Source of the DNA: Agrobacterium rubi TR3 = NBRC 13261
Lineage (GTDB): Bacteria > Pseudomonadota > Alphaproteobacteria > Rhizobiales > Rhizobiaceae
Reading direction: 5' to 3'
Assembly: GCF_000739935.1 (NCBI RefSeq)
Contig: NZ_BBJU01000020.1
Coordinates: 1 to 64,000 of the forward strand
DNA: 64,000 nucleotides
The notes under the pieces were generated by a model. That model had not been told where the DNA came from. It searched no databases and was given only the letters and a program-made list of their open reading frames with translations. Of the stretch, positions 5,755-56,571 are shown one piece after another. Position numbers and translations under genes: made by a program. Numbering within the stretch: the first letter of the stretch is position 1; the number at the start of each line of letters is the position of its first letter.

Positions 5755-6756
5755 CTACAGTCGGGTGGTCACTCTAATGTCACCGACATGGATGCCGTTC
5801 CAGTTTTTCATGGGACGGTTGGCCATGTTCAAAAGTGCCTGCTGTTCATGGCTGTCATTTTCGAAATATCGCGCCAGCAGCGCCGTGATCATCGCTTCGG
5901 CAGCACGCGTGGTGCCATCCTCGCACTTCACCGCCATGGCGATGCCCTGCTGCGGCAAGGCTGCAACGAACACGCCTTCCGCGCCTGTCTTAGCAAAAAT
6001 CTGGCCGGGTGCGAGTTCCATCAGCCGCGTGCAGGTGCGGCCCGTTCCGGCCACATAAAACGGCTCCGCCATACAGGCATCGATCAGACGGCGGGAGGCT
6101 TTGGCCCGGCCTGCGTCCAACCCCTGCCCCGTCGCCATCCTAGCAAAGCCATGGGCCAGCCCTTTCAGCGGCACCGCATATGTCGGGATAGAACAACCAT
6201 CGACGCCGCAATTGTCATGACCCAAGACGGCACCGGTCAGGCTTTCCATCGTCGCGCGTATCTCGGCCTGAAGTGGATGGTCGTAACCGACATAGCCCTT
6301 CGTCTCCATGCCTGAATGGACGCAGGTGCAGACGAAGCCTGAATGTTTGCCGGAGCAATTGTTGTGAAGCGCCGTGGGCTTATCCATCGTGCGGGCCTGA
6401 TGGATGATCGTCTTCTGGTCGGAAGACCAGTGCGCGCCGCATTCCAGTGTCTCCACGTCCCTGCCTGTCTTTGCCAGCATGGCGGCCGCAAGCTGCGCAT
6501 GGGCGTCTTCGCCCGAATGGGAGGCGCAGGCGAAAGCCAGTTCCCGGTTTCCAAATCCATAGGCATCCGCAGCGCCGCTTTCGATGAGCGGCAGCGCCTG
6601 CATCGCCTTGCAGGCGGAACGTGGAAACACGCCACCTTCCACATCGCCTGCGGAAAACACGACGGAGCCATCGCCATCCACCACCACGGCCATGCCGCGA
6701 TGGCGGCTTTCGACGAGATTTCCTCTGGTGATTTCGACGGTAACGGGGTTGTGCAT
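5755..6756 (-). CDS. Type 3 (rhizobial) L-asparaginase
   Basis: A 333-residue enzyme that hydrolyses L-asparagine to aspartate and ammonia, of the family typified by the Rhizobium etli inducible asparaginase, unrelated to E. coli asparaginases. Two Ser-Lys style elements are visible: Ser47-x-x-Lys50 (RSACK) and Ser79 (CASHSGE). The Cys134 and Lys137 of NNCSGKHSG and a Cys near 188 in NCGVDGCS match the residues known to hold a zinc ion in the R. etli enzyme. No signal peptide is seen, so it is cytoplasmic. The gene is divergent from the DUF3750 gene. Confidence 0.88.
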   Translation of the reverse strand: MHNPVTVEITRGNLVESRHRGMAVVVDGDGSVVFSAGDVEGGVFPRSACKAMQALPLIESGAADAYGFGNRELAFACASHSGEDAHAQLAAAMLAKTGRDVETLECGAHWSSDQKTIIHQARTMDKPTALHNNCSGKHSGFVCTCVHSGMETKGYVGYDHPLQAEIRATMESLTGAVLGHDNCGVDGCSIPTYAVPLKGLAHGFARMATGQGLDAGRAKASRRLIDACMAEPFYVAGTGRTCTRLMELAPGQIFAKTGAEGVFVAALPQQGIAMAVKCEDGTTRAAEAMITALLARYFENDSHEQQALLNMANRPMKNWNGIHVGDIRVTTRL

Positions 6757-41916: not shown

Positions 41917-42231
41917 AAAGCGGCACCTGGCTTGGCATATCGCTGCTGCAACCGCTGAGCGGACTTGCACGACATGCCGTGGTATCTTTGTTGAAGGCGT
42001 TTCGCGCGAAGGTTCTGGTCCGCAAGGAATCGCCGGGTCTGTCCCGTCATAATGCGTTTCAGTGCCGAAGGGAATCGATCCGTCCTCTGATCGACGCACC
42101 ACAAACACTTTCGTGCGACCTGTTTCATGGACGCAACCTTTGCCGCACCGCAGACTTTTCTAGAAGCTCAAACAATCGTATCAGTGAAGCGCAAAGCAGC
42201 CGCAGTCGCTGCTGCCAAGGGAGTTATCAAC

Positions 42232-42501
42232 ATGCGTGTTTCCATTGTTCTCGGTGCAGTCGCAACATTGCTGGCGCTATCGTCCTGCCAGACGCTGAGC
42301 CCGGAGGAACGGCGCGCACGTGACGAAACGACCTGCCGAGGTTATGGCTTCCGCCCCAATACGGACCAGATGGCCGGTTGCCTGCTGGATCTCGACCTCG
42401 ACCGACGCGCGGATGCGCGTGCTTGGCAGGCACAATCCAGCCGCGACATGTTCTATCGCCCTGTTGTGGTGGAACGCCGCATCATCGTGCAGAACCGCTA
42501 G
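42232..42501 (+). CDS. Small lipoprotein
   Basis: An 89-residue protein from the ATG at 42232 with AGGGAG eight bases upstream. A signal peptide with lipobox LSSC predicts lipid attachment at Cys20. The mature part carries RARDETTCRGYGF and MAGCLLDLDLDRRADARAWQ, a pattern common in small rhizobial envelope lipoproteins. It is convergent with ppdK and overlaps its stop by four bases. Confidence 0.75.
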   Translation: MRVSIVLGAVATLLALSSCQTLSPEERRARDETTCRGYGFRPNTDQMAGCLLDLDLDRRADARAWQAQSSRDMFYRPVVVERRIIVQNR

Positions 42502-45224
42502 ACCTTCGCCGGAATCGCCCTGAGAGGCACGACCTTCGACACGGTTTCGGTGTCACGCTTTTGCGCCATGGCGAGCGTTGCCTGCGCCGCAGATAGCCGC
42601 GCGATCGGCACGCGGAAGGGCGAGCAGGACACGTAGTCCAGACCCGCATCCTCACAGAAATGGATCGACGCTGGGTCGCCGCCATGCTCACCGCAAATGC
42701 CGAGTTTCAATTCTGGCCGCGTCTGGCGTCCACGGTCGGCGGCGATGCGGATGAGTTCTCCGACGCCATCGAAATCCAGTGAGACGAAGGGGTCTCGCTC
42801 GATGATGCCTTTGCGCTGATAGGTCTCGATGAAGCGTGCGGCATCATCGCGGGAAATGCCGAATGTCGTTTGCGTCAGGTCGTTGGTGCCGAAGGAGAAG
42901 AATTCGGCGGCCTCGGCAATCACATGGGCACGGAGAGCGGCACGCGGTAGCTCGATCATGGTCCCGGTGAGATATTCCAGCGTCACGCCGGTTTCCTGCG
43001 CCACGGCTGCGGCGACGCGGTCGATGACGGCGCGGACATAGTCCAGTTCCGAACGAAGACCAACGAGCGGCACCATGATTTCCGGCACGACGGGTGCGCC
43101 GGTCTGGCGTGCGGCTTCGACGGCGGCCTCGAAAATGGCGCGGGCCTGCATTTCTGCAATTTCGGGATAGGAAATGGCCAGGCGGCAACCACGATGGCCG
43201 AGCATGGGGTTGAACTCGTGCAATGCATCCAGCCGTTGCCGGAACAGCGTCTGCGACATGCCCATGGCCGCCGCGACCTCCACGATTTCGCCATCGGTCT
43301 TGGGCAGGAATTCGTGCAAGGGTGGGTCGAGTAGGCGAATTGTCACCGGCAGGCCGTGCATGATGGAAAACAGGTCGGTAAAATCCTGCCGCTGCATGGG
43401 CAGCAACTGGTCGAGCGCGGCACGCCTGCCCTCTTCGTGTTCGGCAAGGATCATTTCGCGCATCACTTGAATGCGGTCGCCCTCGAAGAACATATGTTCT
43501 GTGCGGCACAGGCCTATGCCTTCGGCGCCGAAGGCGCGGGCAGCGCGGGCATCGGCAGGTGTGTCGGCATTGGTGCGCACCGTCATGCGGCGGGTGGCGT
43601 CTGCCCATTGCATCAGCTTGGCGAAATCGCCTGACAGTTCCGGCTGCGTCATCGGCACTTCGCCCTTCATCACGCGACCGGATGACCCGTCGATGGTGAT
43701 GACATCGCCCTGTCTCAGCATGCAGCCCACGCCGATCAGCACGTTGTTGCGCACATCCACCCGCATGGAGCCTGCGCCGGAGACGCAGGGAATGCCCATG
43801 CCGCGAGCGACAACCGCCGCATGGCTGGTCATGCCGCCGCGCGTGGTCAGGATGCCTTCGGCGGCATGCATGCCGTGAATGTCTTCCGGGCTGGTTTCCA
43901 TGCGCACGAGAATGACGCGTCGCCCTTCGGCTTTCGCCGCAACGGCCTCATCGGAGCTGAAGACGATCTCGCCGGATGCCGCACCGGGCGAGGCCGGAAG
44001 GCCGGAGCCGATGATAGGGCGCTCGATGGAGGGATCGATGGTGGGGTGCAGCAACTGATCGAGCGACGAGGGCTCGATGCGGCAGATGGCTTCATCGGTG
44101 GTAACGAGACCTTCGGCCACCATATCGACGGCGATCTTCATCGCCGCCTTGGTGGTGCGCTTGCCTGCACGGGTCTGCAACATCCACAATTTGCCGCGCT
44201 CTATGGTGAATTCCATATCCTGCATATCGCGGTAATGGCCTTCCAGCCGTCCGCAAATCTCGATGAATTCAGCAAATGCCTCGGGCATCAGCTTTTCCAT
44301 AGACGGCTTGTCGGAGCCGGAGTTTATGCGCGCCTCTTCGGTAATGGATTGCGGGGTGCGAATGCCTGCGACCACATCCTCACCCTGCGCGTTGACGAGG
44401 AATTCGCCGTACAGCTCTTTTTCGCCTGTGGAGGGATTGCGGGTGAAGGCAACGCCAGTCGCGGACGTAGAGCCGAGATTACCGAAGACCATGGCCTGCA
44501 CGTTGACCGCCGTGCCCGAGTCGCCCGGAATATTGTGCAGTTGGCGGTAGGTGACGGCGCGGGTGTTCATCCAGCTCGCAAAGACGGCGCCGATGGCACC
44601 CCACAATTGCACCTGCGTGTCCTGCGGAAACGGTTCGCCGAGCTCGTCTTCGATCAGGCCGTTATAGAGCGAGACGATGTGCTGCCACTCATCCGCCGAC
44701 AGTTCGGTATCGTATTCGTATCCAAGACGTCCCTTCTCATCCTCCAGGATTTCTTCGAAGATTTCGTGGTCGAGGCCCATCACCACATCGGCATACATCT
44801 GGATGAAGCGGCGGTAGCTATCCCAGGCAAAGCGGGCGTCACCCGAATCGCTGGCCAGCGCCTGCACCGTCTCGTCATTGAGGCCGAGGTTGAGGACCGT
44901 GTCCATCATGCCGGGCATGGAGGCGCGGGCGCCCGAGCGAATGGAGAGAAGAAGCGGTTGCGAGCCGGAGCCGAAAGTGCGACCGGTGATGGCTTCCATG
45001 CCGGAGATGCCGCTGGTGACCTGCAATTTCAGTTCTTCAGGCAAACAGCGACCGCCCTGATGGTAGCGCGCGCAGGCTTCGCTGATAATGGTCAGGCCGG
45101 GGGGAACAGGCAGGCCGAGGCTCGCCATTTCAGCAAGGTTTGCGCCCTTGCCGCCCAATATGGCGATGTCGCTCGCGCGTCCCTCAGCGATCCCATCGCC
45201 AAAGGTATAGACCCACTTTTTCAT
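42498..45224 (-). CDS. ppdK: Pyruvate, phosphate dikinase
   Basis: A 908-residue enzyme that interconverts pyruvate, ATP and phosphate with PEP, AMP and pyrophosphate. The N-terminal ATP-grasp domain starts with GGKGANLAEMASLGLPVPPG. The swivelling domain carries the phosphorylated His468 with the regulatory Thr466 (GGMTSHAAVVARGMG). The C-terminal TIM barrel holds FGTNDLTQTTFGISRDD and GICGEHGGDP with the catalytic Cys. In rhizobia it supports gluconeogenesis from dicarboxylates. It is a single gene with a terminator upstream of its promoter region. Confidence 0.95.
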   Translation of the reverse strand: MKKWVYTFGDGIAEGRASDIAILGGKGANLAEMASLGLPVPPGLTIISEACARYHQGGRCLPEELKLQVTSGISGMEAITGRTFGSGSQPLLLSIRSGARASMPGMMDTVLNLGLNDETVQALASDSGDARFAWDSYRRFIQMYADVVMGLDHEIFEEILEDEKGRLGYEYDTELSADEWQHIVSLYNGLIEDELGEPFPQDTQVQLWGAIGAVFASWMNTRAVTYRQLHNIPGDSGTAVNVQAMVFGNLGSTSATGVAFTRNPSTGEKELYGEFLVNAQGEDVVAGIRTPQSITEEARINSGSDKPSMEKLMPEAFAEFIEICGRLEGHYRDMQDMEFTIERGKLWMLQTRAGKRTTKAAMKIAVDMVAEGLVTTDEAICRIEPSSLDQLLHPTIDPSIERPIIGSGLPASPGAASGEIVFSSDEAVAAKAEGRRVILVRMETSPEDIHGMHAAEGILTTRGGMTSHAAVVARGMGIPCVSGAGSMRVDVRNNVLIGVGCMLRQGDVITIDGSSGRVMKGEVPMTQPELSGDFAKLMQWADATRRMTVRTNADTPADARAARAFGAEGIGLCRTEHMFFEGDRIQVMREMILAEHEEGRRAALDQLLPMQRQDFTDLFSIMHGLPVTIRLLDPPLHEFLPKTDGEIVEVAAAMGMSQTLFRQRLDALHEFNPMLGHRGCRLAISYPEIAEMQARAIFEAAVEAARQTGAPVVPEIMVPLVGLRSELDYVRAVIDRVAAAVAQETGVTLEYLTGTMIELPRAALRAHVIAEAAEFFSFGTNDLTQTTFGISRDDAARFIETYQRKGIIERDPFVSLDFDGVGELIRIAADRGRQTRPELKLGICGEHGGDPASIHFCEDAGLDYVSCSPFRVPIARLSAAQATLAMAQKRDTETVSKVVPLRAIPAKV

Positions 45225-45357
45225 TCTACGCTCTCCACCCAGAAGCGTTCTTGTTTTTCAACCCTTTACAGCATTGTCATAGTGTTGGAAACGCCAGTTT
45301 TGGCAGGTTGCCACCGCAGTGCAGCATAAATACGGCGCAGGCGCCAGCGCTCATCAT

Positions 45358-45383
45358 AAAAAACCGCCCGCGACGAGCACGGG
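45358..45383 (-). terminator. Rho-independent terminator after the mcp gene
   Basis: Read on the minus strand: CCCGTG, loop CTCGT, CGCGGG (one G-U pair), two bases, then six T. It lies 48 bases past the chemoreceptor stop. Confidence 0.75.
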
Positions 45384-45430
45384 GGGCATGGAAGGCATGA
45401 TCTTATCTCAGGTCATTAAAGCCTTTCGGC

Positions 45431-47332
45431 TCAAAACTCTTCCCATTCGGATTTGACAGCGGCACCGCCGTTGAAGGCAGAGGCAACCTTGCGGCCCAGC
45501 GCACGGGCCGGAGACTGAACCGGACGTTCCGCCTGCGTCGCCTGGCGCGGTGCCTCGTATCCACCGCCCAGCTTGAACTGGCCCAGCAACTGGTTGAGCG
45601 AAGCGGCTTCGCGAGCAAGGCCGTGGCTGGCCGCGGTCTGCTCCTCGACCATGGCCGCGTTCTTCTGCGTGTCCTGATCCATCTGGTTCACAGCCGTGTT
45701 GATCTGCTGCAAGCCGGAAGACTGCTCCTGCGCACCATCGACAATCGCCACAACGTGACGGTTGATTTCCTGCACTTCGGCAACGATGGTTTCCAAGGCG
45801 CGACCTGTCTCGCCGACTAGTTGCACGCCCTGCTGGACCTGACCGTTCGACGTCGTGATCAAAGCCTTGATGTCCTTGGCGGCATTGGCAGAGCGCTGGG
45901 CCAGTTCACGGACTTCCTGAGCCACGACCGCAAAGCCCTTGCCTGCTTCACCGGCACGCGCCGCTTCCACACCGGCATTCAAGGCCAGAAGGTTGGTCTG
46001 GAAAGCGATCTCATCGATCACGCTGATGATGTTGGAGATTTCAGACGAGGACTTCTCGATCTGTTCCATGGCAATGACAGCCTTGCGAACCACATCGCCG
46101 GACTGTTCGGCACCGGTGCGGGCCTTGGAGACCAGCTGACCGGCTTCCTGTGCACGCTTGGTGCTGTCCTTCACCGTCGTGGTGATCTGCTCGAGGGCCG
46201 CTGCGGTTTCTTCGACCGACGCCGCCTGCTGTTCGGTGCGCTTGGCCAGATCGTCGGCAGCGGCGCGGATTTCATTGGCACCGGCGTCGATACCACGCGC
46301 GTTTTCGGCAACGCGAGACAGGGCCGATTGCAGCTTTTCGGCGGAGGCGTTGAAGTTGCTGCGGACAGCATCGAGATGAGCAGCGAAAGGCTGGCTGATG
46401 CGATAGGAGACATCGCCGTCCGACAGGCGCGACAGCGCATCGGCCAGGTTATCGACGGCAAAGCTGGTGTCTGCCGCTTCCTTGGCTTTCTGTTCCTCAC
46501 GGGCAATGCGTTCCTTTTCGGACAGGCTGCGATTGGCATCGGCTTCATGTTCGAGGCGAGCGCGCTCGATGGCATTGTTGCGGAAGATGACGACGTTCTG
46601 GGCCATCTTGCCGATCTCGTCCTTGCGATCTGCGCCGGGAATCTCCAGATCGACATTGCCGGATGCGAGCGACGACATGGAACCCGTCATGCGCTGAATG
46701 GGCTTGATGACACCGCGAATGACGATGAGCACGCAGACCACCGCCAGCGCCAAAGCAATGGCACCGAGAATGGCCAAGGTGTGGACGATGAAGGATTTGA
46801 GGTCTTCACCGGCAACCATGCCGTCCTTGGCTGCGGTCAATTGAATGTCTATGAGTTTCGAGACGGACTCTCCCAAGGGATCGATGATCGAATAGAGCTG
46901 ACCATCGGCGAAATTGCCGATCTCCTCCAGATTACCGGCCTGCAACAGCGTGATGATGCCCTGGATTTTCTGATCCGCCGATTGGCGCATGCTCTGAAAT
47001 TCATCGGCCAGACGCTTCTCATCCACTGTCAGATAGGTAGCGGTATAATCCCTCCAGGACTTGTCGATGTTCTGCATCGCGCCACGGATGTTCTGGATAC
47101 CCTGGTCGACGGTCAGGGAGCCGCCACTCACCTTGTGAACGGTATCCACAATCTTGACCGCGTAATCATCCGAAATGGATTTGAGCTGTGCCATGGGTAT
47201 CACGCGGTCGGCGACAACGCTGCGCAGCAGCCTTGCTTCTTCATTCAGCGCGTAAAACGAAAAGACCGACGTCACCGCAAGTATTGCGACGAGGAAAAAT
47301 ATGCAGGACAGAAGTTTTGACCGAATAGACAT
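45431..47332 (-). CDS. Methyl-accepting chemotaxis protein
   Basis: A 633-residue receptor starting at the ATG at 47332 (GAGGATCTCC upstream). A membrane segment at about 10-30, a four-helix-bundle-type periplasmic domain (35-185) and a second segment (about 187-212) precede two HAMP regions and the signalling domain. The hairpin tip is EIAFQTNLLALNAGVEAARAGEAGKGFAVVAQEVRELAQRSANAAK. The C-terminus ends in EWEEF, like the NWETF-type pentapeptide that tethers CheR and CheB. The ligand is unknown. Confidence 0.92.
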   Translation of the reverse strand: MSIRSKLLSCIFFLVAILAVTSVFSFYALNEEARLLRSVVADRVIPMAQLKSISDDYAVKIVDTVHKVSGGSLTVDQGIQNIRGAMQNIDKSWRDYTATYLTVDEKRLADEFQSMRQSADQKIQGIITLLQAGNLEEIGNFADGQLYSIIDPLGESVSKLIDIQLTAAKDGMVAGEDLKSFIVHTLAILGAIALALAVVCVLIVIRGVIKPIQRMTGSMSSLASGNVDLEIPGADRKDEIGKMAQNVVIFRNNAIERARLEHEADANRSLSEKERIAREEQKAKEAADTSFAVDNLADALSRLSDGDVSYRISQPFAAHLDAVRSNFNASAEKLQSALSRVAENARGIDAGANEIRAAADDLAKRTEQQAASVEETAAALEQITTTVKDSTKRAQEAGQLVSKARTGAEQSGDVVRKAVIAMEQIEKSSSEISNIISVIDEIAFQTNLLALNAGVEAARAGEAGKGFAVVAQEVRELAQRSANAAKDIKALITTSNGQVQQGVQLVGETGRALETIVAEVQEINRHVVAIVDGAQEQSSGLQQINTAVNQMDQDTQKNAAMVEEQTAASHGLAREAASLNQLLGQFKLGGGYEAPRQATQAERPVQSPARALGRKVASAFNGGAAVKSEWEEF

Positions 47333-47677
47333 GGAGATCCTCTTGAACGACGCATCTTCGCGACAATCGGACCGAGCCGAATAATGTCTGGCGATGTATG
47401 GATGCGCGATCAAAGAGTGATCTCGAAGTATTAATTAGATATGAAACACATCCTTTATGCTGATAATTTGAGCAGTTTGCGCGTGGAATGATCAGACTTA
47501 ATCGTCAGGAAGAAATAATACCAATCAAGAGATGTATAATAATTATGCAGACGTCGCGGAGGCGCCAACTTCCAAGAGAGACTATAAGGCAGCACATCGC
47601 CAGGATGGATAAATAGTCAAATTTACGTTACGGAAGCTTTCGCATTCTGGCGTTTATTTTTGCGAAATCGTAAAAAT
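47333..47677. other. A+T-rich intergenic region upstream of the chemoreceptor gene
   Basis: About 345 bases, clearly lower in G+C than the genes. It should hold the mcp promoter. No gene is supported. Confidence 0.5.
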
Positions 47678-47784
47678 AAATCGACGGAAACGAGTTGCAA
47701 CGCCCTGCTCTGCCATGGTGACTGAAGAGGCGGACCATGGTGATGACGACACGCTTTTCGATGGAGGCTACCATCTTCTCCATG
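47678..47784 (-). pseudogene. Decayed fragment of the 3' end of smc
   Basis: About 107 bases align with the intact smc at 49417-49554 (SMC residues about 1098-1144 of 1154), in the same orientation. Stretches of 16-25 bases match with few differences: 21 bases with 2 mismatches, 25 with 1, 16 with 2, then about 44 with 8, interrupted by gaps of 2, 2 and roughly 27 bases. The gaps destroy the frame, so it cannot be functional coding DNA. Confidence 0.8.
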
Positions 47785-47801
47785 TGCGCGTACCCTCAAA
47801 T

Positions 47802-47839
47802 ATAAAAACCAAACCCCCCGCCTTGGTTCACGGCAGGGG
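47802..47839 (-). terminator. Terminator after the 28-residue-repeat protein gene
   Basis: Read on the minus strand: CCCC, one base, GCC, nine-base loop, GGC, GGGG, then TTTGGTTTTT. It lies 26 bases past the stop codon. Confidence 0.7.
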
Positions 47840-47864
47840 ATTTTTATGACGCGGGCGGGTTTCT

Positions 47865-48902
47865 TCAGAATTCCGCAGTGATCTTGATTTCGATCTGATG
47901 GTCTGCCTTGCCGGAGGCACCGGAATTGCGCTTCGCCGCCACCTCCACCTTCAGGTTCTTTGGTCGATCATAGGCCACACCGATTTCCGTGCTCCGTTCA
48001 TCGCCGTAGCGGGTATGACGGCCAGAACCGCTCCAGTCGGATCCCGTGGGCTTGTAGCTTGCCCCGATCGAATGGCCGCTGACATTGCCACTCCTGCTGA
48101 CATTGCCATCCACAGCCCATTGCCTGTCGGTGGACTTGTAGTCGGCACCCAATTGGCGCTTCAGCACGTCGCCATTTTTCTGAACAATGCCCTGCACGCC
48201 CCAACCGGTGTCTCCCGCGCGATACGCGGCATCCAGCGAGGCGTTGACCACATCGCCAGCCTTTTCGTAGCTTGCCTTGCCAGTAAAGCCGTTGCCGCCT
48301 CCGCTTACGTTCAGTGCACGCTTGGCCACATTCATGTGATTGTCGAGTGTGACGCTGCCATCGGCCTTCAGGGACGCCGTGTCAAAGCTCGTGTCGAAAT
48401 AGAAGGTGGTGTTCTTGGAAGCGAGATCGGTGTAGACGCTCACATTCGGATTGATGCCATTGGTCTTCAACCCGATGACGCTGTTGCTTTTGGCATCCAT
48501 CGTGATGAGCTTGCCGGGGTTGGAAATATAATTTCCGAGCAGCTTTTTCTGGGATGACGTGGGCTCGACAGGCTTTCCGGCAGGATCGAATGCGCCCATC
48601 GCCGTATAGTCCCGCGCGCCCACCCGGGAATTGATTGCGTAGAGCAGATAGCCGTCGCTGGTCATCCCGGCCACGCTCTGATGCTGGGTCCTGCGCAGAT
48701 TATACTTCTCGTAGACGGAAAACGTTTCGTCGATGATGGCGTCCAGTTCGCGACCGCTGAGAACGACCGTCGCCTTGCCTTCGGAACCCGACAGATTCGG
48801 CGAGCTGGACAGCGGGATCGGCCGAAACACGGGGGGTGTGCTCTGGGCATTTGTGTTTGCAGAGGCCTGGCCTGTCGGCCGTGGTACAGTGGGTATTGCC
48901 AT
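47865..48902 (-). CDS. Unrecognised protein with 28-residue tandem beta repeats
   Basis: A 345-residue protein not recognised. The N-terminal 40 residues are Pro/Ser/Thr-rich and have no signal peptide. Residues about 45-175 form an unassigned domain. From residue 206 to the end are five consecutive units of exactly 28 residues (206-233, 234-261, 262-289, 290-317, 318-345); three begin with Trp and the common pattern is W-x-V-x-G-x-V-x3-G-D-x5-I-G-A-x-Y-K, the look of paired beta strands. A weaker unit may precede them (178-205). The last residue is Phe after alternating hydrophobic positions, as in outer-membrane barrels. It has its own terminator. A barrel or fibre is only a possibility. 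Confidence 0.7.
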   Translation of the reverse strand: MAIPTVPRPTGQASANTNAQSTPPVFRPIPLSSSPNLSGSEGKATVVLSGRELDAIIDETFSVYEKYNLRRTQHQSVAGMTSDGYLLYAINSRVGARDYTAMGAFDPAGKPVEPTSSQKKLLGNYISNPGKLITMDAKSNSVIGLKTNGINPNVSVYTDLASKNTTFYFDTSFDTASLKADGSVTLDNHMNVAKRALNVSGGGNGFTGKASYEKAGDVVNASLDAAYRAGDTGWGVQGIVQKNGDVLKRQLGADYKSTDRQWAVDGNVSRSGNVSGHSIGASYKPTGSDWSGSGRHTRYGDERSTEIGVAYDRPKNLKVEVAAKRNSGASGKADHQIEIKITAEF

Positions 48903-49382
48903 GATCTACCTTCCATGTTTGCGCACTTGGCGTCCGGTTCGTCTCCAGGCGGATAACCTCACCTTTCGCAGTCCCGACACCAGGTGCGGCTTTGGGGCTT
49001 TGGTGTTCAGCTCCCGAGAACAACCAGCCAGCCAACACATTCATATATTCCCCGCGCATCGACGTGCGACGAGGAACGATAATCGATGAGAATATCTGGC
49101 TGGAGGGCCAGATTTTCATGGAATGGACACGGGATCTACCGCACCCCGTAACCGCTGTGAAAATGCCTTACAAAACGTCTGATTGCAAACTTCTAGTGTC
49201 AGATTGCAATTAGCCGCCATCAATGCGGAGGAAAATGGCGCTCGGATGGCAAATTTCAACTTTTGGCCAATGTTTTGCAGCATCGCAGATCGGTGGGAGA
49301 AAGATGCCATGACGTAAATGCTGGCAAAGAAACCGCGGAAAGGCAGAAAATCAGGCTTAGGAGCAGCCTTCAGAGCTTCCCC
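48903..49382. other. Intergenic between the repeat-protein gene and smc
   Basis: About 480 bases. Short open frames on both strands lack ribosome-binding sites and composition of a gene. A small direct repeat (GATTGCAA) occurs twice near 49178 and 49202. No terminator was found directly after smc. Confidence 0.45.
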
Positions 49383-52300
49383 TCAGACCGTTTCGATCAG
49401 TTTTTCCGCCATCTGCAAATCGACGGACACCAGTTGCGAAACGCCCTGCTCGGCCATGGTGACTCCGAAGAGGCGATCCATGCGGGCCATGGTGATGGGG
49501 TTGTGGGTGATGATGACGAAGCGCGTTTCGGTGGAGGCCACCATCTCGTCCATCAGGTTGCAGTAACGCTCGACATTGTGGTCATCCAGCGGTGCGTCCA
49601 CTTCGTCCAGCACGCAGATCGGCGCGGGATTGGTGAGGAAGACGGCGAAGATCAGCGCCATGGCGGTCAAGGCCTGCTCACCGCCCGAAAGTAGCGTCAT
49701 GGTCTGCGGCTTCTTGCCAGGCGGGCGGGCGAGGATTTCGAGGCCTGCTTCCAGTGGGTCGTCGGATTCGATCAGTTGCAATTCCGCCGTGCCACCGCCG
49801 AACAGGTGGGTGAACAACCGCTGGAATTGCGTGTTGACGATATCAAAGGCGGCAACCAGTCGCTCGCGACCCTCGCGGTTGAGATTGTGGATACCCGCGC
49901 GCAGCTTGCGCACGGCATCGATGATGTCGTCGCGTTCCTTGATCAGCGCCGCCAGCTTTTCAGAGAGCTCTGCCTGCTCCTCATCGGCACGCAGATTGAC
50001 GGCACCAAGGCGTTCCCGCTCGATTTTCAGCCGATCCAGATCACGCTCGACATCGCGGATCTCGGGCATCGGCGCATCGACCGCTAGGCCCGTCAGGCGA
50101 AAGGCCATGTGAGGCTCGACGTTCAGCGCCTCGCGGATGCGATGTTCACCTTCCTGACGCTTCTCGCGGGCCGACACGAGGCGTTCTTCAGCGCGGCCAC
50201 GTTTTTCGCGAGCTTCCGCCAATGCTGACAGAGCGATGGTGGCTGCGCGGTCTGCCTCGCGTTGCAGGTTTTCCGCCTCGACCAGCTGGTCGGCAGCGGC
50301 CCGCCGTGCTTCCTCGGTTTTTTGCAGTTGCGTTAGAAGATCGCGACGCTTCTCATCGAACTCTTCCGGCGCGATGTCCAGTTCGGCAAGCTCATCGCGC
50401 GCTTCATCCTCGCGTTCGCGCAGGGTTGCGATATGACCGCTGGCGCTGGCGGCACGGGCCTGCCATGTGGCACGTTCCTGCGCGATGGCATTGATGCGGC
50501 GCTGGCGTGCCTCGGCCTCCCGGTTCAGGCCTTCATGTTTCGCGCGAGCTTCGGCCACAAGGCTGCGGTCGGTTGCGACCTCAAGCTGGCTTTCGCGCAA
50601 GCGCAAATCGAGGTCGGAAAGATCCGCCGCGTCTTCCAGCTCGATGCGGGCATTTTCTTCCTGAACAGCGATGTCTTCGATCTGGCCGCTGATCTGGTTG
50701 ATCGCTTCGGAAACGATATCGCGGCGACGCAGAAGATCACCGGAGGCGCGTTCGGCCATGGACAATGCATCCCGGGCTTCGACCAGTTGACGGGATGCCA
50801 GACGGCTTCGTTCCCGCGCATCGGCAAGCTGGCTTTCGACAAGGCGAATTTCATCGGCGCTGGCGGCAAGCTGCTCTTCCGCCTCTTCCAAGGCGTAGCG
50901 CGCCTCTTCCACTTCACTTTCAAGCTCGGCAAGACGGTTTTTCTGGGCAAGCCGCAGGGCTGCATTACCGGGCGCATCGGCACTGGTGATGTGGCCATCC
51001 CAGCGGAACAGTGCGCCGTCTTTGGTGACGAGGCGCTGACCGGGTTTCAGCGCGGGCATCAGGCGCTTGGCTTCATCAGGGCTCGAGACGATACCCGTCT
51101 GGCGCAGCGTGCGTTTCAGCGCATCCGGCCCTGCGACATGCGCAAGCAGGGATGTCACGCCATCGGGCAGCGCCGGATCAGCGGCACCTTCGCCGTTTGC
51201 GGTCCAATAGGCCGGGGCGGCAGGGTCGAGCGGGCTTTCGAGATCATCGCCCAAGGCGGCACCAAGGGCTGCTTCGAAGCCGCGATCCACCTTCAGCTCT
51301 TCAGCCACCGGCGTGAACGAGCCGGAGACGGCACCGGCGGCCAGCATTTTGGAGATGGTGCGCGCTTCGGTTTCCAGCGCGTTGAGGCGGCTGCGTGCCG
51401 CTTCCACCGGGCCACGCGCGATCGCTTCCGCAGAACGAGCCTCTGCTACCGCAGTTTCAGCCTCTTCCACCACGATCAACGCGTCTTCGACGGCGATTTC
51501 GGCGGCTTCTACGCTTTCGCGCTTTTCCGAAGGGTCCGGAAGGCCGGAGAGTTTTTCATCGATATTTTCGATTTCGGCAGCAGCGTCCGAGGCCTGACGG
51601 TCTAGCCGCGCCTTCCGATCGGCAAGATCGCGGATGGTGCGTTCCAGTTGGGTACGGTTGGCGGAGGCTTCGGCGCGCTCTGCGGTGAGGCTTGCGAAAA
51701 CACGTTCGCTCTCGGCGAGCTTCGCGGCGGCCTCCTCGAAAGCTTCGCGGGTTTCTTCCGAGTAGCGGCCCGAGTCGGCCAGGATTTCGAGAATCTCGGC
51801 TTCTTCCGAATCCAGACGCGCGAGGATTTCGGCATTGTCAGAAACCATGCGCTCCTCGCGCTCTATATCCTCGCCCAGTTGCGCCAGACGACGGGCAAGC
51901 TCGTCGCGGCGGCGCAGTATGCGGTTGGTTTCCTCATCCAGTTGGGTGCGGGCGATTTGCAGGCGTTGCAAGGCGGCGGCGACCTTGGCTTCATTTTCAC
52001 GCAGTTCCGGCAGTTTGAAGCTGGCAAGGCCTTGCGCCTTGGCAGCTTCCATCTGTGCCTGCGCTTTTTCGGCCACCAGATTGGTCGCCTGATTGAGCGC
52101 GCTTTCCGCCTCGCCCTCGGCCTGCTTGGCGTCCACCCAGCGGATGTGCAGCAAGGTCGCCTCACGGGCGCGGATATCCGCCGACAGCATCTTGAAGCGG
52201 TTGGCCTGACGCGCCTGCCGTTTCAGGCTTTCGATCTGGCTCTCCAATTGCGCCGTGACGTCTTCCAGTCGCTCAAGATTGGCCTCGGCGGCGCGCAGGC

Positions 52301-52847
52301 GCAGTTCTGCCTCGTGGCGGCGCGAATGCAGGCCGGAGATGCCTGCCGCCTCTTCCAGAAGCTGGCGGCGGGCCTGCGGTTTGGCGTTGATGAGTTCACC
52401 GATCCGCCCCTGCCCAACCATGGAGGGCGAGCGTGCGCCGGTGGAGGCATCGGCGAACAGAAGCTGCACATCCTTGGCGCGGGCTTCCTTGCCATTGATG
52501 CGATAGACCGAGCCGTTTTCGCGCTCGATGCGGCGGGTGACTTGGATTTCATCGGCATCGTTGAAGGCAGCGGGAGCAGTGCGGTCGGAATTGTCGAGGT
52601 AGAGGCCAACTTCGGCGGTGTTGCGTGCCGGGCGATTGCCTGAACCGGAGAAGATTACGTCATCCATGCCGGATGCGCGCATGTTCTTGTAGGAATTCTC
52701 GCCCATCACCCAGCGAAGCGCTTCGACAAGATTGGACTTGCCGCAGCCATTGGGGCCGACGACGCCCGTCAGACCCGGCTCGATGATGAACTCGGAGGGC
52801 TCGACGAAGGATTTGAAGCCGAGCAGGCGCAGCTTGTTGAACTTCAT
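49383..52847 (-). CDS. smc: Chromosome segregation ATPase SMC
   Basis: A 1154-residue condensin core protein. The N-terminal head has the P-loop GPNGCGKSN at 31-39; long coiled-coil arms follow, with a hinge near residues 510-640. The C-terminal head carries the signature LLSGGEQALTAMALIFA and Walker B PAPICVLDEVDAPLDD. It organises and segregates the chromosome with ScpA/B. It lies downstream of dsbA across a terminator, so has its own promoter in the short spacer or some read-through. Confidence 0.96.
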   Translation of the reverse strand: MKFNKLRLLGFKSFVEPSEFIIEPGLTGVVGPNGCGKSNLVEALRWVMGENSYKNMRASGMDDVIFSGSGNRPARNTAEVGLYLDNSDRTAPAAFNDADEIQVTRRIERENGSVYRINGKEARAKDVQLLFADASTGARSPSMVGQGRIGELINAKPQARRQLLEEAAGISGLHSRRHEAELRLRAAEANLERLEDVTAQLESQIESLKRQARQANRFKMLSADIRAREATLLHIRWVDAKQAEGEAESALNQATNLVAEKAQAQMEAAKAQGLASFKLPELRENEAKVAAALQRLQIARTQLDEETNRILRRRDELARRLAQLGEDIEREERMVSDNAEILARLDSEEAEILEILADSGRYSEETREAFEEAAAKLAESERVFASLTAERAEASANRTQLERTIRDLADRKARLDRQASDAAAEIENIDEKLSGLPDPSEKRESVEAAEIAVEDALIVVEEAETAVAEARSAEAIARGPVEAARSRLNALETEARTISKMLAAGAVSGSFTPVAEELKVDRGFEAALGAALGDDLESPLDPAAPAYWTANGEGAADPALPDGVTSLLAHVAGPDALKRTLRQTGIVSSPDEAKRLMPALKPGQRLVTKDGALFRWDGHITSADAPGNAALRLAQKNRLAELESEVEEARYALEEAEEQLAASADEIRLVESQLADARERSRLASRQLVEARDALSMAERASGDLLRRRDIVSEAINQISGQIEDIAVQEENARIELEDAADLSDLDLRLRESQLEVATDRSLVAEARAKHEGLNREAEARQRRINAIAQERATWQARAASASGHIATLREREDEARDELAELDIAPEEFDEKRRDLLTQLQKTEEARRAAADQLVEAENLQREADRAATIALSALAEAREKRGRAEERLVSAREKRQEGEHRIREALNVEPHMAFRLTGLAVDAPMPEIRDVERDLDRLKIERERLGAVNLRADEEQAELSEKLAALIKERDDIIDAVRKLRAGIHNLNREGRERLVAAFDIVNTQFQRLFTHLFGGGTAELQLIESDDPLEAGLEILARPPGKKPQTMTLLSGGEQALTAMALIFAVFLTNPAPICVLDEVDAPLDDHNVERYCNLMDEMVASTETRFVIITHNPITMARMDRLFGVTMAEQGVSQLVSVDLQMAEKLIETV

Positions 52848-52864
52848 GCTGCGGCCCCGAGATC

Positions 52865-52901
52865 AAAAAAAACGGGCGCACGGAAGCATCCGTCGCCCGT
52901 C
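52865..52901 (-). terminator. Rho-independent terminator after the DsbA-like gene
   Basis: On the minus strand ACGGGCG and CGCCCGT flank an inner CGGA/TCCG pair, followed by eight T. It lies 19 bases past the stop and just before smc. Confidence 0.85.
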
Positions 52902-52919
52902 TTTATGAAGGAACGTTGA

Positions 52920-53600
52920 TTACAGCAGGCTGTCGACAAGAGCCGACATGTTTTCAACAGACATGTCTCCAGCGTAGCGCTTTCCGTTGACGATGAAGGT
53001 CGGGGTCGAGTTGACGCCGAATTCCGTGGCACCGCGTTGCATCGTGGCGTTCACATCATCCAGAAGCTTCTGGTTCGTCAAGCAGGCCTCGAATGTCTCC
53101 TGTGAAAAACCTGCCAGTTTCGACATTTGCAGAAGTGCAGCGCGTGCATCCTGCGCCGTTGCCCAGCTCTGCTGCTGTTTGAAGAGCATGGAAATGAACG
53201 GGTAATATTGCTGCTCAGGTGCACAACGGGCCAGCATGAAGGCGGCAGCGGCACGCGGATCGAACGGGAATTCGCGGATCACGAAATAGACCTTGCCGGT
53301 ATCGATGTACTTTTTCTTGATTTCATCAAAGGTCGTGTTGTGGAAATGCGCGCAGTGCGGGCACGTCATCGACATATATTCAACGATCTTCACGGGTGCG
53401 TTCGGATCACCCAGCGCACGGTCCGGCAGCGGGCCGGGCTTCATGACTGCCGTCATATCCACATCGCCGGACGATTCCGGCAAAGTCTGAGCAAGGGCAG
53501 AGCCCGGCGTCAGAGCGAATGGAAGGGCTGCGGCCACGGCGGCAAGGGCGATACCGCCCATAAGGTTGCGGCGGGTGATATTGAAGTCTGGAAAATGCAT
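52920..53600 (-). CDS. DsbA-family thiol:disulfide oxidoreductase, Tat-exported
   Basis: A 226-residue periplasmic protein. The ATG at 53600 (AGGTG upstream) gives a Tat-type signal: ITRRNLMGG followed by a hydrophobic stretch and an Ala-Leu-Ala site near residue 37. The thioredoxin-fold active site is CPHC at 80-83 (MSMTCPHCAHFHNTTF), and the cis-Pro loop is VNSTPTFIVNG. It likely forms or transfers disulfides in exported proteins. The gene precedes smc and follows dciA in the same direction. Confidence 0.9.
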   Translation of the reverse strand: MHFPDFNITRRNLMGGIALAAVAAALPFALTPGSALAQTLPESSGDVDMTAVMKPGPLPDRALGDPNAPVKIVEYMSMTCPHCAHFHNTTFDEIKKKYIDTGKVYFVIREFPFDPRAAAAFMLARCAPEQQYYPFISMLFKQQQSWATAQDARAALLQMSKLAGFSQETFEACLTNQKLLDDVNATMQRGATEFGVNSTPTFIVNGKRYAGDMSVENMSALVDSLL

Positions 53601-53736
53601 CAAGCACCTGTGTGTGAAAGACTGAAATTGTCTGCAATTGCGATATCGCGGCCACATGCTCAGAACAAGCGGCCATTTCTTCTCTTCTTGTCAAAGAATT
53701 GTGACCAGTCAAGGACTGCGTGGTCTGGGAACTGCG

Positions 53737-54246
53737 TCAAATGGTGCCAGAGCGGGTGCGCTTTTGCAAAACCGCGGTGCCAAGCCGTTCCACCGCCTTG
53801 CGCAAGGCTTCGTTTTCAATGCCGTCCATCATGCCTTCCAGCCGCTTGGCGGCATCGCCGCGCAGGGGCTGTGGCTTGGGCCGCCGGTTGAGCGTTCGCG
53901 ACACCGGCTTTTGCACGATCCTGATCTGGCGCACGGCGGGAAAACCGAAAAAGCCGTTGATGCGGGAAATCAACTCGCCCTGCGCATGCGTCAAAAACAG
54001 CGCGCGCGCGCCTTCGCAAGCAATGGTCAGCACACCGGCCTGATACCCACCACGATCCGGCCCCTCGTCGCGTCGCGGCCATGTGATCTTTTCCGGGCGG
54101 GTGCAATCGGCAAAATCGCTTCCGGCAATTTCATCCCAAGACCCTAGCAAGGCCGTGCTGATTCCAGCGCGTTTCGCCAGCACCGGATCGATGATGCCGT
54201 TTGCGATTTCGGCAATCTGGATAACGCCTTTGCGGGGCTTTTTCAT
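53737..54246 (-). CDS. DciA-like (DUF721) protein
   Basis: A 169-residue protein from the ATG at 54246 behind GAGGTG; the upstream open frame overlaps the mutY region and is rejected. The DUF721 core is ADPVLAKRAG-like at the N-terminus (IIDPVLAKRAGISTALLGSWDEIAG), then GVLTIACEGARALFLTHAQGELISRINGFFGFPAVRQIRI. DciA proteins load the replicative helicase where DnaC is absent, as in alphaproteobacteria. It is divergent from mutY. Confidence 0.85.
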   Translation of the reverse strand: MKKPRKGVIQIAEIANGIIDPVLAKRAGISTALLGSWDEIAGSDFADCTRPEKITWPRRDEGPDRGGYQAGVLTIACEGARALFLTHAQGELISRINGFFGFPAVRQIRIVQKPVSRTLNRRPKPQPLRGDAAKRLEGMMDGIENEALRKAVERLGTAVLQKRTRSGTI

Positions 54247-54326
54247 TTTCACCTCGTCAACTCGCGGCTTGATCGGCGCAAGCGGATGAACCAAGTATAG
54301 GCGCAATACGAGGACCACAGCAAACC

Positions 54327-55427
54327 ATGCTTCATAAAATCGACAACCCTGTTTATGCCGGCATGCTGCTGGCATGGTACGACCGACACCACCGCGACCT
54401 GCCATGGCGCACATCACCACCGATGACCGCAAAGGGTTTGCGGGCCAATCCTTATCATGTTTGGCTGTCCGAGGTCATGCTACAACAGACCACCGTGCAG
54501 GCGGTGAAGCCTTACTTTGCCAAGTTTCTGGCGCTATGGCCGAAGGTCGAGGATCTGGCCGCAGCCCCCAGCGATGACGTGATGGCCGCTTGGGCGGGGC
54601 TTGGGTATTATGCCCGCGCACGTAACCTGAAGAAATGCGCTGAAGCCGTTGCCAATCAGCATGGCTGCGTGTTTCCCGACACCGAAGAAGGCTTGAAGAG
54701 CCTGCCCGGCATCGGCGATTACACGGCAGCAGCCATCGCAGCCATCGCCTTCAACCGGCAATCGGCGGTGCTGGATGGCAATGTCGAGCGGGTGGTTTCC
54801 CGCCTGTTTTGCATCGACGCCCCTCTGCCTGGTTCCAAAGGTGTGATGCGGGCGAAGGTCGCGGAGATTACGCCTGCCGACCGCCCGGGGGATTTTGCTC
54901 AGGCGATGATGGACCTCGGCGCCACCATTTGCACGCCAAAGCGCCCGGCCTGCGCGCTCTGTCCGTTCAACAACCACTGTCTGGCGCTAGCGCAGGATGA
55001 GCCGGAGCGCTTTCCGGTGAAGGCTGCCAAGAAGGAGAAGCCGGTGCGCGTCGGTGCAGCCTTCGTTGCGGTGAACGACAAAGGCGAGATACTGCTGCGT
55101 CGCCGGATCGAAACCGGCCTGCTAGGCGGAATGACGGAGGTGCCGACGACCGCATGGACGGCGCGGATCGATGGCGGCACCGGCACTGAGCACGCACCCT
55201 TCGATGCGGATTGGGAGGCAGCTGGTACGATCGTCCATGTGTTCACGCATTTCGAGCTTCGGCTATCCATTTTCCGCGCCAAGGTTTCCGGCAGCGTGAA
55301 ACCGGGTGCGAATGACGAATGGTGGGAGCCGGTCACAAATCTTGATGCGCAGGCCCTGCCGACAGTGATGAAAAAAGCGATCGCGCAGGCTATTCCTCTC
55401 GCATTCGATAAAAGCAGGAAAAATTGA
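54327..55427 (+). CDS. mutY: A/G-specific adenine DNA glycosylase
   Basis: A 366-residue base-excision repair enzyme removing adenine opposite 8-oxoguanine. SEVMLQQTTV carries the catalytic Glu; LPGIGDYTAAAIAAIAF is the helix-hairpin-helix, and VLDGNVERV the catalytic Asp. CTPKRPACALCPFNNHC gives the C-x6-C-x2-C-x5-C 4Fe-4S cluster. A NUDIX-like C-terminal domain (from about 240) recognises 8-oxoG. The stop overlaps the start of the HAD gene. Confidence 0.95.
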   Translation: MLHKIDNPVYAGMLLAWYDRHHRDLPWRTSPPMTAKGLRANPYHVWLSEVMLQQTTVQAVKPYFAKFLALWPKVEDLAAAPSDDVMAAWAGLGYYARARNLKKCAEAVANQHGCVFPDTEEGLKSLPGIGDYTAAAIAAIAFNRQSAVLDGNVERVVSRLFCIDAPLPGSKGVMRAKVAEITPADRPGDFAQAMMDLGATICTPKRPACALCPFNNHCLALAQDEPERFPVKAAKKEKPVRVGAAFVAVNDKGEILLRRRIETGLLGGMTEVPTTAWTARIDGGTGTEHAPFDADWEAAGTIVHVFTHFELRLSIFRAKVSGSVKPGANDEWWEPVTNLDAQALPTVMKKAIAQAIPLAFDKSRKN

Positions 55428-56038
55428 TGACCAAGATCAATCACATCGTTTTCGACATCGGCAAGGTTCTGATCCATTACGACCCAAACATCCCCTACAG
55501 CCGCATCATTCCCGATGAGAAAGAGCGGGCATGGTTCTTCGAGAATGTCTGCACGCACGAATGGAACCTGGAGCAGGACCGGGGCCGCACATGGGAAGAA
55601 GCCGAGTCGCTGCTTTTGGAGGCTTACCCGGACCACGAAAAGACGATCCGCGCCTTTCGTCTGCACTGGCACGAAATGGTGTCGCACTCCTATGACGATT
55701 CGGTCGCCATTCTCAAAGGCCTGATCGCTTCAGGTCACGACGTGACGATGCTCACCAATTTCGCCTCCGATACCTTCCGCGAGGCACGGAAGATGTATCC
55801 GTTTCTTACCCTCTCACGCGGCGTGACCGTGTCGGGCGATGTCGGTCTGATCAAACCCGATGTTGCGATTTATGAATTGCATGCGCGGACCTTTGGGCTG
55901 GACCCTGCCAGCAGTCTTTTCATTGATGATTCGCCAGCGAATGTAGAAGGTGCTAAAATAGCAGGATGGGAATCGGTACATTTTACAGGTGCCGAGAAAT
56001 TGAGAGCCGACTTGGCGAAATATGGGGTGATTTTTTGA
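55427..56038 (+). CDS. HAD family hydrolase
   Basis: A 203-residue HAD phosphatase of the IA group. The nucleophile motif is VFDIGKVL with Asp at about residue 9 (the second Asp of the usual DxD is replaced by Gly), motif II is MLTNFA, Lys of motif III is in LIKPD and motif IV is FIDDSPANV. The missing general acid Asp in motif I is notable and questions classical phosphatase activity; some dehalogenase-type HADs share it. It is coupled to mutY (TGATG). Confidence 0.82.
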   Translation: MTKINHIVFDIGKVLIHYDPNIPYSRIIPDEKERAWFFENVCTHEWNLEQDRGRTWEEAESLLLEAYPDHEKTIRAFRLHWHEMVSHSYDDSVAILKGLIASGHDVTMLTNFASDTFREARKMYPFLTLSRGVTVSGDVGLIKPDVAIYELHARTFGLDPASSLFIDDSPANVEGAKIAGWESVHFTGAEKLRADLAKYGVIF

Positions 56039-56571
56039 CGGACAATCAAAATAGGAACGCGCTCGTTTTGTATGAGGAAATCGTTGTTCCAAGTCCGATC
56101 ATCATTCAAATCGCTAAAAGTATACCGCCCGAACAAAGCGACGTCTTTCAGTCATGGCTCCGGCAATTATTGCAGATAAGAAATCTTCCTATATCCAACG
56201 TAAAAAAAGGGGCAAAGGCGATAGCTTTGACACTGGATGTCAAACTTTTGTGGCCATCGGTTAAGCTGATAGCAGCCGAGATAAAAAGACATGGTTGGGA
56301 TAACCGAAAAAGAAGCCATCGTGTGGGTCTTGGTGCAGCTGCCGTTAGCCTTGCCGTTTTTGGGAATCAGGCGGCAGGAATAGCAGCACTTGGGTCTGCG
56401 ATCGGGGTGCCTCTGTGGATTGTGCTAGGTGCTGGATCGATGTTTGCAGACCAGCTCTTGAAAGAATTATCTGGAGCGCTGGCTGCAGGTAAAAAAACTT
56501 ATGAAAATGAACTGGGATTTAAAGAAACGTATCGGGACACTATCGATCTGTCAGCAAATCCTGAAAAGTGA
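56035..56571 (+). CDS. Unrecognised A+T-rich gene with a hydrophobic C-terminal half
   Basis: A 178-residue protein not recognised. I take the TTG at 56035, behind GGGGTGA and overlapping the HAD stop; no ATG fits. Residues 1-90 are mixed, residues about 97-138 are hydrophobic and Gly/Ala-rich (possibly one or two membrane helices), and the tail is charged. Base composition and codon use are visibly more A+T-rich than every neighbour, suggesting recent transfer. No partner gene is evident. Confidence 0.6.
   Translation: MTDNQNRNALVLYEEIVVPSPIIIQIAKSIPPEQSDVFQSWLRQLLQIRNLPISNVKKGAKAIALTLDVKLLWPSVKLIAAEIKRHGWDNRKRSHRVGLGAAAVSLAVFGNQAAGIAALGSAIGVPLWIVLGAGSMFADQLLKELSGALAAGKKTYENELGFKETYRDTIDLSANPEK

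Follow-up and report, generated by a model that had tools for sequence, protein, structure and literature searches.

In the DNA analysed here, a stretch of 64,000 nucleotides from Agrobacterium rubi TR3 (hereafter the window), the essential chromosome-organising gene smc raises the question of why a second, damaged version of its 3' end lies beyond another gene, its right edge 1.6 kb from the present smc stop codon. The genome that carries the window is called G000, and G015 and G016 are relatives from the same genus; the features of the locus are collected in the table. A blastn comparison with the 64-kb window aligned this relic to smc in two blocks, 47678-47739 against 49417-49482 (86.4% identity, 66 columns, E 3.6e-14) and 47738-47783 against 49508-49553 (82.6%, 46 columns, E 7.9e-6). 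A local alignment of 47600-47830 with 49300-49700 reached a score of 85, whereas 1000 dinucleotide shuffles of 47600-47830 gave a mean of 17.7 and a maximum of 29, and the identical blocks of relic and smc were also recovered by a second method. An earlier note on this DNA had described about 107 bases that match smc codons ~1098-1144 in the same orientation, too well for chance; the significant alignment bears this out, with the codons now being 1099-1144. In a search of the whole genome the relic sequence matched two places, the relic itself and smc (E 5.3e-14 for the smc copy), and no third match was present in G000.

Features of the smc locus, with positions counted from the first letter of the window
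Feature	Position	Strand	Basis or remark
Methyl-accepting chemotaxis protein gene (chemoreceptor), left neighbour	45431..47332	-	domain search
Inverted repeat (hairpin), 13-bp arms, 92% complementary	47653..47680		between chemoreceptor gene and relic
AAATCGA joint of hairpin flank and relic	47678..47684		sequence comparison with G015
Relic, read as the decayed original smc 3' end, codons 1099-1144	47678..47784	-	blastn and relatives
Insert between old and new smc tails, 1.6 kb	47785..49382		in the genus sample only in G000 and G016
Cargo gene, 345 aa	47865..48902	-	88% identical protein in G016
Present smc 3' end, repeat partner of the relic	49383..49553	-	blastn self-comparison
smc, gene of the chromosome partition ATPase; 1154 aa, frame intact	49383..52847	-	SMC_N, SMC_hinge

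The alignment contains gaps of 2, 2 and 27 bases. That the gaps break the reading frame, as had been stated, is correct for both 2-base gaps and incorrect for the 27-base gap, which is frame-neutral. The relic of G000 also lacks the final 34 bp of the gene including the stop codon, which the relic of G016 retains. At its left edge the relic is overlapped by 3 bases by the hairpin, which folds no better than shuffled sequences (z -1.09) and which is also found in G015, where it adjoins the smc stop codon. The motif AAATCGA occurs twice in G015, once after the hairpin and once inside the smc end, and its single occurrence in the window would be consistent with a deletion or a joining at this 7-bp repeat.

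Which of the two smc ends is the older one in its place can be read from the relatives. G015 does not have the insert. Up to position 47684 its left flank matches the window at 93.7% identity, and the smc stop codon follows 11 bp beyond this matching flank. G016 has the insert, and its relic includes the smc stop and continues into intergenic DNA. As the G015 flank meets the smc stop and the G016 relic runs through it, the relic marks the site at which smc originally ended. Comparison with the empty site of G015 thus establishes the position and ancestry of the relic, and it places the insert between the old and the present smc tail, with the present tail on the far side of the insert. The view that the relic records an old duplication or insertion at the smc 3' end is supported by this comparison, but its wording has to be changed: the decayed sequence marks the ancestral position, and the tail of the present smc is the copy beyond the insert.

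Within the genus, the occurrence of the relic is narrow. When 39 whole genomes were searched with the G016 relic, with at most 22 candidates scored per genome, G000 and G016 alone had a match in addition to smc, while 31 others had one match each and 6 had none. A direct comparison of the 1.5 kb beside smc in 28 relatives, a span that falls short of where the relic lies in the window, yielded only chance-like matches of 14-36 bp. The cargo gene, which the earlier note had called a repeat-protein gene, has an ortholog in 2/39 genus genomes, and these are the two that carry the relic, so that the expected absence of the relic from relatives lacking this gene was indeed found.

The cargo gene itself has no match in Pfam, NCBIfam or PHROGs; it is the one plausible gene of the insert, and no recombinase was recognised there. 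Remote relatives exist in Rhizobiaceae and on rhizobial plasmids. Remote homologues with 25-39% identity are present in 13 of the 39 genus genomes, none of them at the smc site, and 24 genomes are without any. In a family sample of 394 genomes, which includes G000 and not G016, the insert DNA has short matches of 26-97 bp in six further genomes. The non-coding stretch 48903-49382 is as conserved between G000 and G016 as the cargo gene (89% identity over 480 bp, against 88%). A remote relative of the cargo gene on a Phyllobacterium plasmid has a type VI hcp gene as its neighbour. Around 15 other relatives (13 + 2 neighbourhoods) nothing matches this Hcp, and the cargo was therefore not called an effector. 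A structure prediction from two sequences had a mean pLDDT of 30.0 and is unusable, and an Rfam search of 45000-50000 gave no hit. A tRNA as insertion site was rejected, the two tRNAs of the window being located at 29.9 and 39.1 kb.

The age of the event can be judged from the lesions of the relic and from the divergence of the insert. The relics of G000 and G016 have a 27-bp loss and several substitutions in common and agree at 74/80 distal positions, so the decay started before the split of the two insert lineages. Further lesions are private to each relic (2+2 bp in G000, 12 bp in G016) and indicate that the decay went on after this split; in its distal part the relic differs from the nearest smc by 16-21%. 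An assembly artefact was rejected, since the relic occurs in two species and its lesions differ between the two genomes. At fourfold sites, where identity is also affected by codon bias, G000 and G016 agree in the cargo gene at 132/163 positions (81.0%), against 761/1218 (62%) for the five neighbouring genes smc, dsbA, mutY, HAD gene and methylase summed (Fisher p = 2e-6); the chemoreceptor gene (48.4% of 153 fourfold sites) has a different history and was excluded from this total. In line with this, the 480-bp non-coding stretch is far more similar between G000 and G016 than the stretch before the chemoreceptor gene (62%), while the chemoreceptor gene of the window is 79% like that of G016. 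In none of six trees (unrooted, 7-9 genomes each) are G000 and G016 sisters. Because the insert is closer than the neighbouring genes and the two genomes never group as sisters, the insert probably moved horizontally, and the comparison strongly suggests such a spread, with an exchange between the lineages that probably took place after their core genes had separated.

The borders of the exchanged piece may be faintly visible. The tract common to G000 and G016 seems to extend only a few bases into the smc tail, where the two genomes agree at bases 4 and 7 against the majority of six others, and the next such base is at 94; bases of this kind are few, with 26 scattered over 1500, and they hint that both borders could lie inside the smc tails. 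The relic is too short to decide on a donor lineage by identity. On either side of the insert the window resembles G015: the 1.3 kb that precede the relic on its left are 93-97% like G015, and right of the insert the smc of the window groups with that of G015. Patches of mostly 89-96% identity between G000 and G015 were observed in the window at 42000-56500 and at 100-108 kb of contig C37, whereas most other 2-kb bins are at 78-88%, a pattern pointing to exchange between species.

We think it likely that the original smc 3' end of the resident survives as the relic, and that it was displaced when DNA with the cargo gene and with homology on one side only was inserted; the one-sided mechanism, like the vehicle and the direction in which the joins were made, is what we infer from the arrangement. 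In such an event the incoming DNA would have carried a homologous 3' end of smc and, behind it, the cargo gene. Homologous recombination inside the smc tail would have kept the smc frame and supplied it with a new end, and the other end of the incoming DNA would have been linked by an illegitimate joint inside the old tail, ~171 bp from its stop codon. A homologous exchange combined with a non-homologous joint would in one step leave smc whole, cut the old tail upstream and place it beyond the cargo gene. An equivalent route would be the single-crossover integration of a circle with an smc tail and the cargo gene. In either case the old tail, now startless and unneeded, could decay.

A comparable process, homology-facilitated illegitimate recombination (HFIR), has been proposed for the displacement of type VI effector modules in Vibrio cholerae (PMC5361080). 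Both cases have one homologous anchor and a displaced old 3' region left downstream, while the joining of the other end without homology, described for V. cholerae, is a joint that we postulate here. Unlike in that system, the anchor and the fossil at our locus are the tail of a core housekeeping gene and not of an effector gene, and the host gene is whole. The anchoring in homology is seen here as an smc tail on both sides of the insert, and the lack of a recombinase or transposase as a single plausible gene without a family match. Small variable segments in the core DNA of several species are flanked by direct repeats in 10-18% of cases, and homology-assisted illegitimate recombination has been given as part of the explanation (PMC2884548); 66-94% of these repeats are shorter than 30 bp, whereas the smc-tail repeat comprises ~150-171 bp of coding sequence. 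In the open-licence literature, judged on titles and the starts of abstracts, no paper on displaced smc tails was found.

A second case was found in another genus. A tblastn survey of the 394 family genomes, for which the final 59 codons of smc served as query, gave a match in 334 and more than one match in three, namely G290, G380 and G381; this survey misses decayed relics, and even G000 gave only one match. G290 was set aside because it has 9% contamination and carries its two long smc frames on separate contigs, which leaves G380 and G381 as the two others of 334 with an extra tail beside smc, and such tails are rare in the family sample. In a sample of the order, which overlaps with that of the family, 323/347 genomes gave a match, and more than one was found in G576 and G583, with the extra matches on other contigs. 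In G381 the last 151 bp of smc are repeated at 98% identity beyond a stretch of 1168 bp with a DUF347 gene. The relic of G381 and the DNA that follows it are continuous with the native smc tail and downstream region of its sisters G288 (93%) and G229 (86%) and briefly with those of G341, and three of the six congeners (G155, G445 and G417) have different DNA right after smc, so that continuity is not seen in these. The inserted stretch has no DNA match in any of the six congeners and a 77% relative elsewhere in G381. Taken together, the comparison indicates that the same displaced-tail layout arose in G381 with an unrelated cargo and another duplicated length. Just past the displaced tail of G381 an AbiEii-like nucleotidyltransferase gene is located (L120, 5974-6933).

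The same layout would result if the smc 3' end had first been duplicated in tandem, by replication slippage or unequal exchange, and the cargo had been inserted between the copies later. Plain tandem copies do arise: G380, a genome of 2.3 Mb, has three head-to-tail smc 3' ends without cargo (contig C9, 69034-69661; L121, ~6035-6720), with extra copies of 218-219 bp that are 80-83% identical. We nevertheless consider this order of events unlikely, as it demands two events at one small place, and this twice over, in the G000/G016 lineages and in G381, with cargo each time. A duplicate free of cargo is seen neither in the genus genomes nor in the six congeners of G381, and in the window and in G381 the copies are neither adjacent nor split by native DNA, the intervening DNA not being found in relatives.

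A more far-reaching idea is that the unit flanked by smc tails is a self-perpetuating cassette without integrase, for which the smc tail would serve as a homology-driven attachment site in alphaproteobacteria, open to cargo of gene size. Recombination of tail with tail would release a circle with the cargo gene and one tail, and this circle would enter the smc 3' end of any relative by a single crossover, by which both repeats would be rebuilt. This is consistent with the data because the tract common to G000 and G016 appears to end inside both tails, because the insert seems younger than the flanking DNA and because the arrangement recurs with another cargo in a second genus; we regard it as a speculation with little probability.

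Less probable still is a site-specific element with the smc 3' end as its attachment site, which would have brought a replacement tail, lost its integrase and survived here as a remnant. The model for such a layout is e14 at E. coli icd, where a 163-bp 3' end is duplicated, icd is restored by the incoming end, and integration leaves a pseudo-icd' tail beyond the element (PMC6379469). The likeness, a host gene restored by an incoming 3' end with the old end beyond the element, is seen in both G000 and G381. In contrast to e14, a 15-kb prophage that integrates at a specific site, the 1.6-kb insert has the cargo gene as its only plausible gene, and no integrase was recognised in it. The duplicated length is also not constant (151 bp in G381, 171 bp in G000), and the two loci have unrelated cargos. 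A conserved function of the relic, for example as an antisense or regulatory sequence, is hardly credible in spite of its persistence in two species, given that each copy has its own lesions in addition to the divergence of its distal part and that genus genomes without the insert have no second match to it, and a role as functional RNA or antisense was rejected for a sequence that is decaying.

A donor with smc followed by this cargo gene was not found in the searches made. With a view to a vehicle, smc tails were matched to 12 phage records, each below 80% identity, and to 43 plasmid records, and among the 20 listed of the latter the rhizobial ones are replicons of 1.9 to 4.6 Mb. Two contigs from a viral collection (L190 and L191) carry smc and are not a vehicle for this insert. 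L191 (1-4403) has an alphaproteobacterial-looking smc 3' end, and ~200 bp past it there are what we take to be portal, protease and capsid genes of a cluster of the gene-transfer-agent type. In L190 (2646-7600) smc is followed by what is presumably an island, in which unknown genes accompany one that resembles a cytosine methyltransferase gene.

The locus is a readable fossil of how a single gene can be added next to an essential one that stays intact, and relatives that are empty, filled and differently filled allow the event to be polarised. The parallel in G381 suggests that displaced tails of conserved genes may reveal gene gains that bear no mobile-element signature, and such relics are not expected in the output of ordinary gene calling. 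A search of 784 kb (the window and relatives) for direct repeats of 50-400 bp that lie close together gave 7 candidates including the relic pair, and another is in L063. In 60 further genomes, the smc tail was compared with its own downstream DNA (up to ~4.5 kb, with only 130 bp available in one genome and 2.6 kb in another), and nothing beyond 16-26 bp was found. In 48 of these 60 genomes (L122-L181), the distance from the smc stop codon to the first match of pyruvate phosphate dikinase ranges from 130 bp to 4 kb, and the interval between smc and ppdK is a variable slot.
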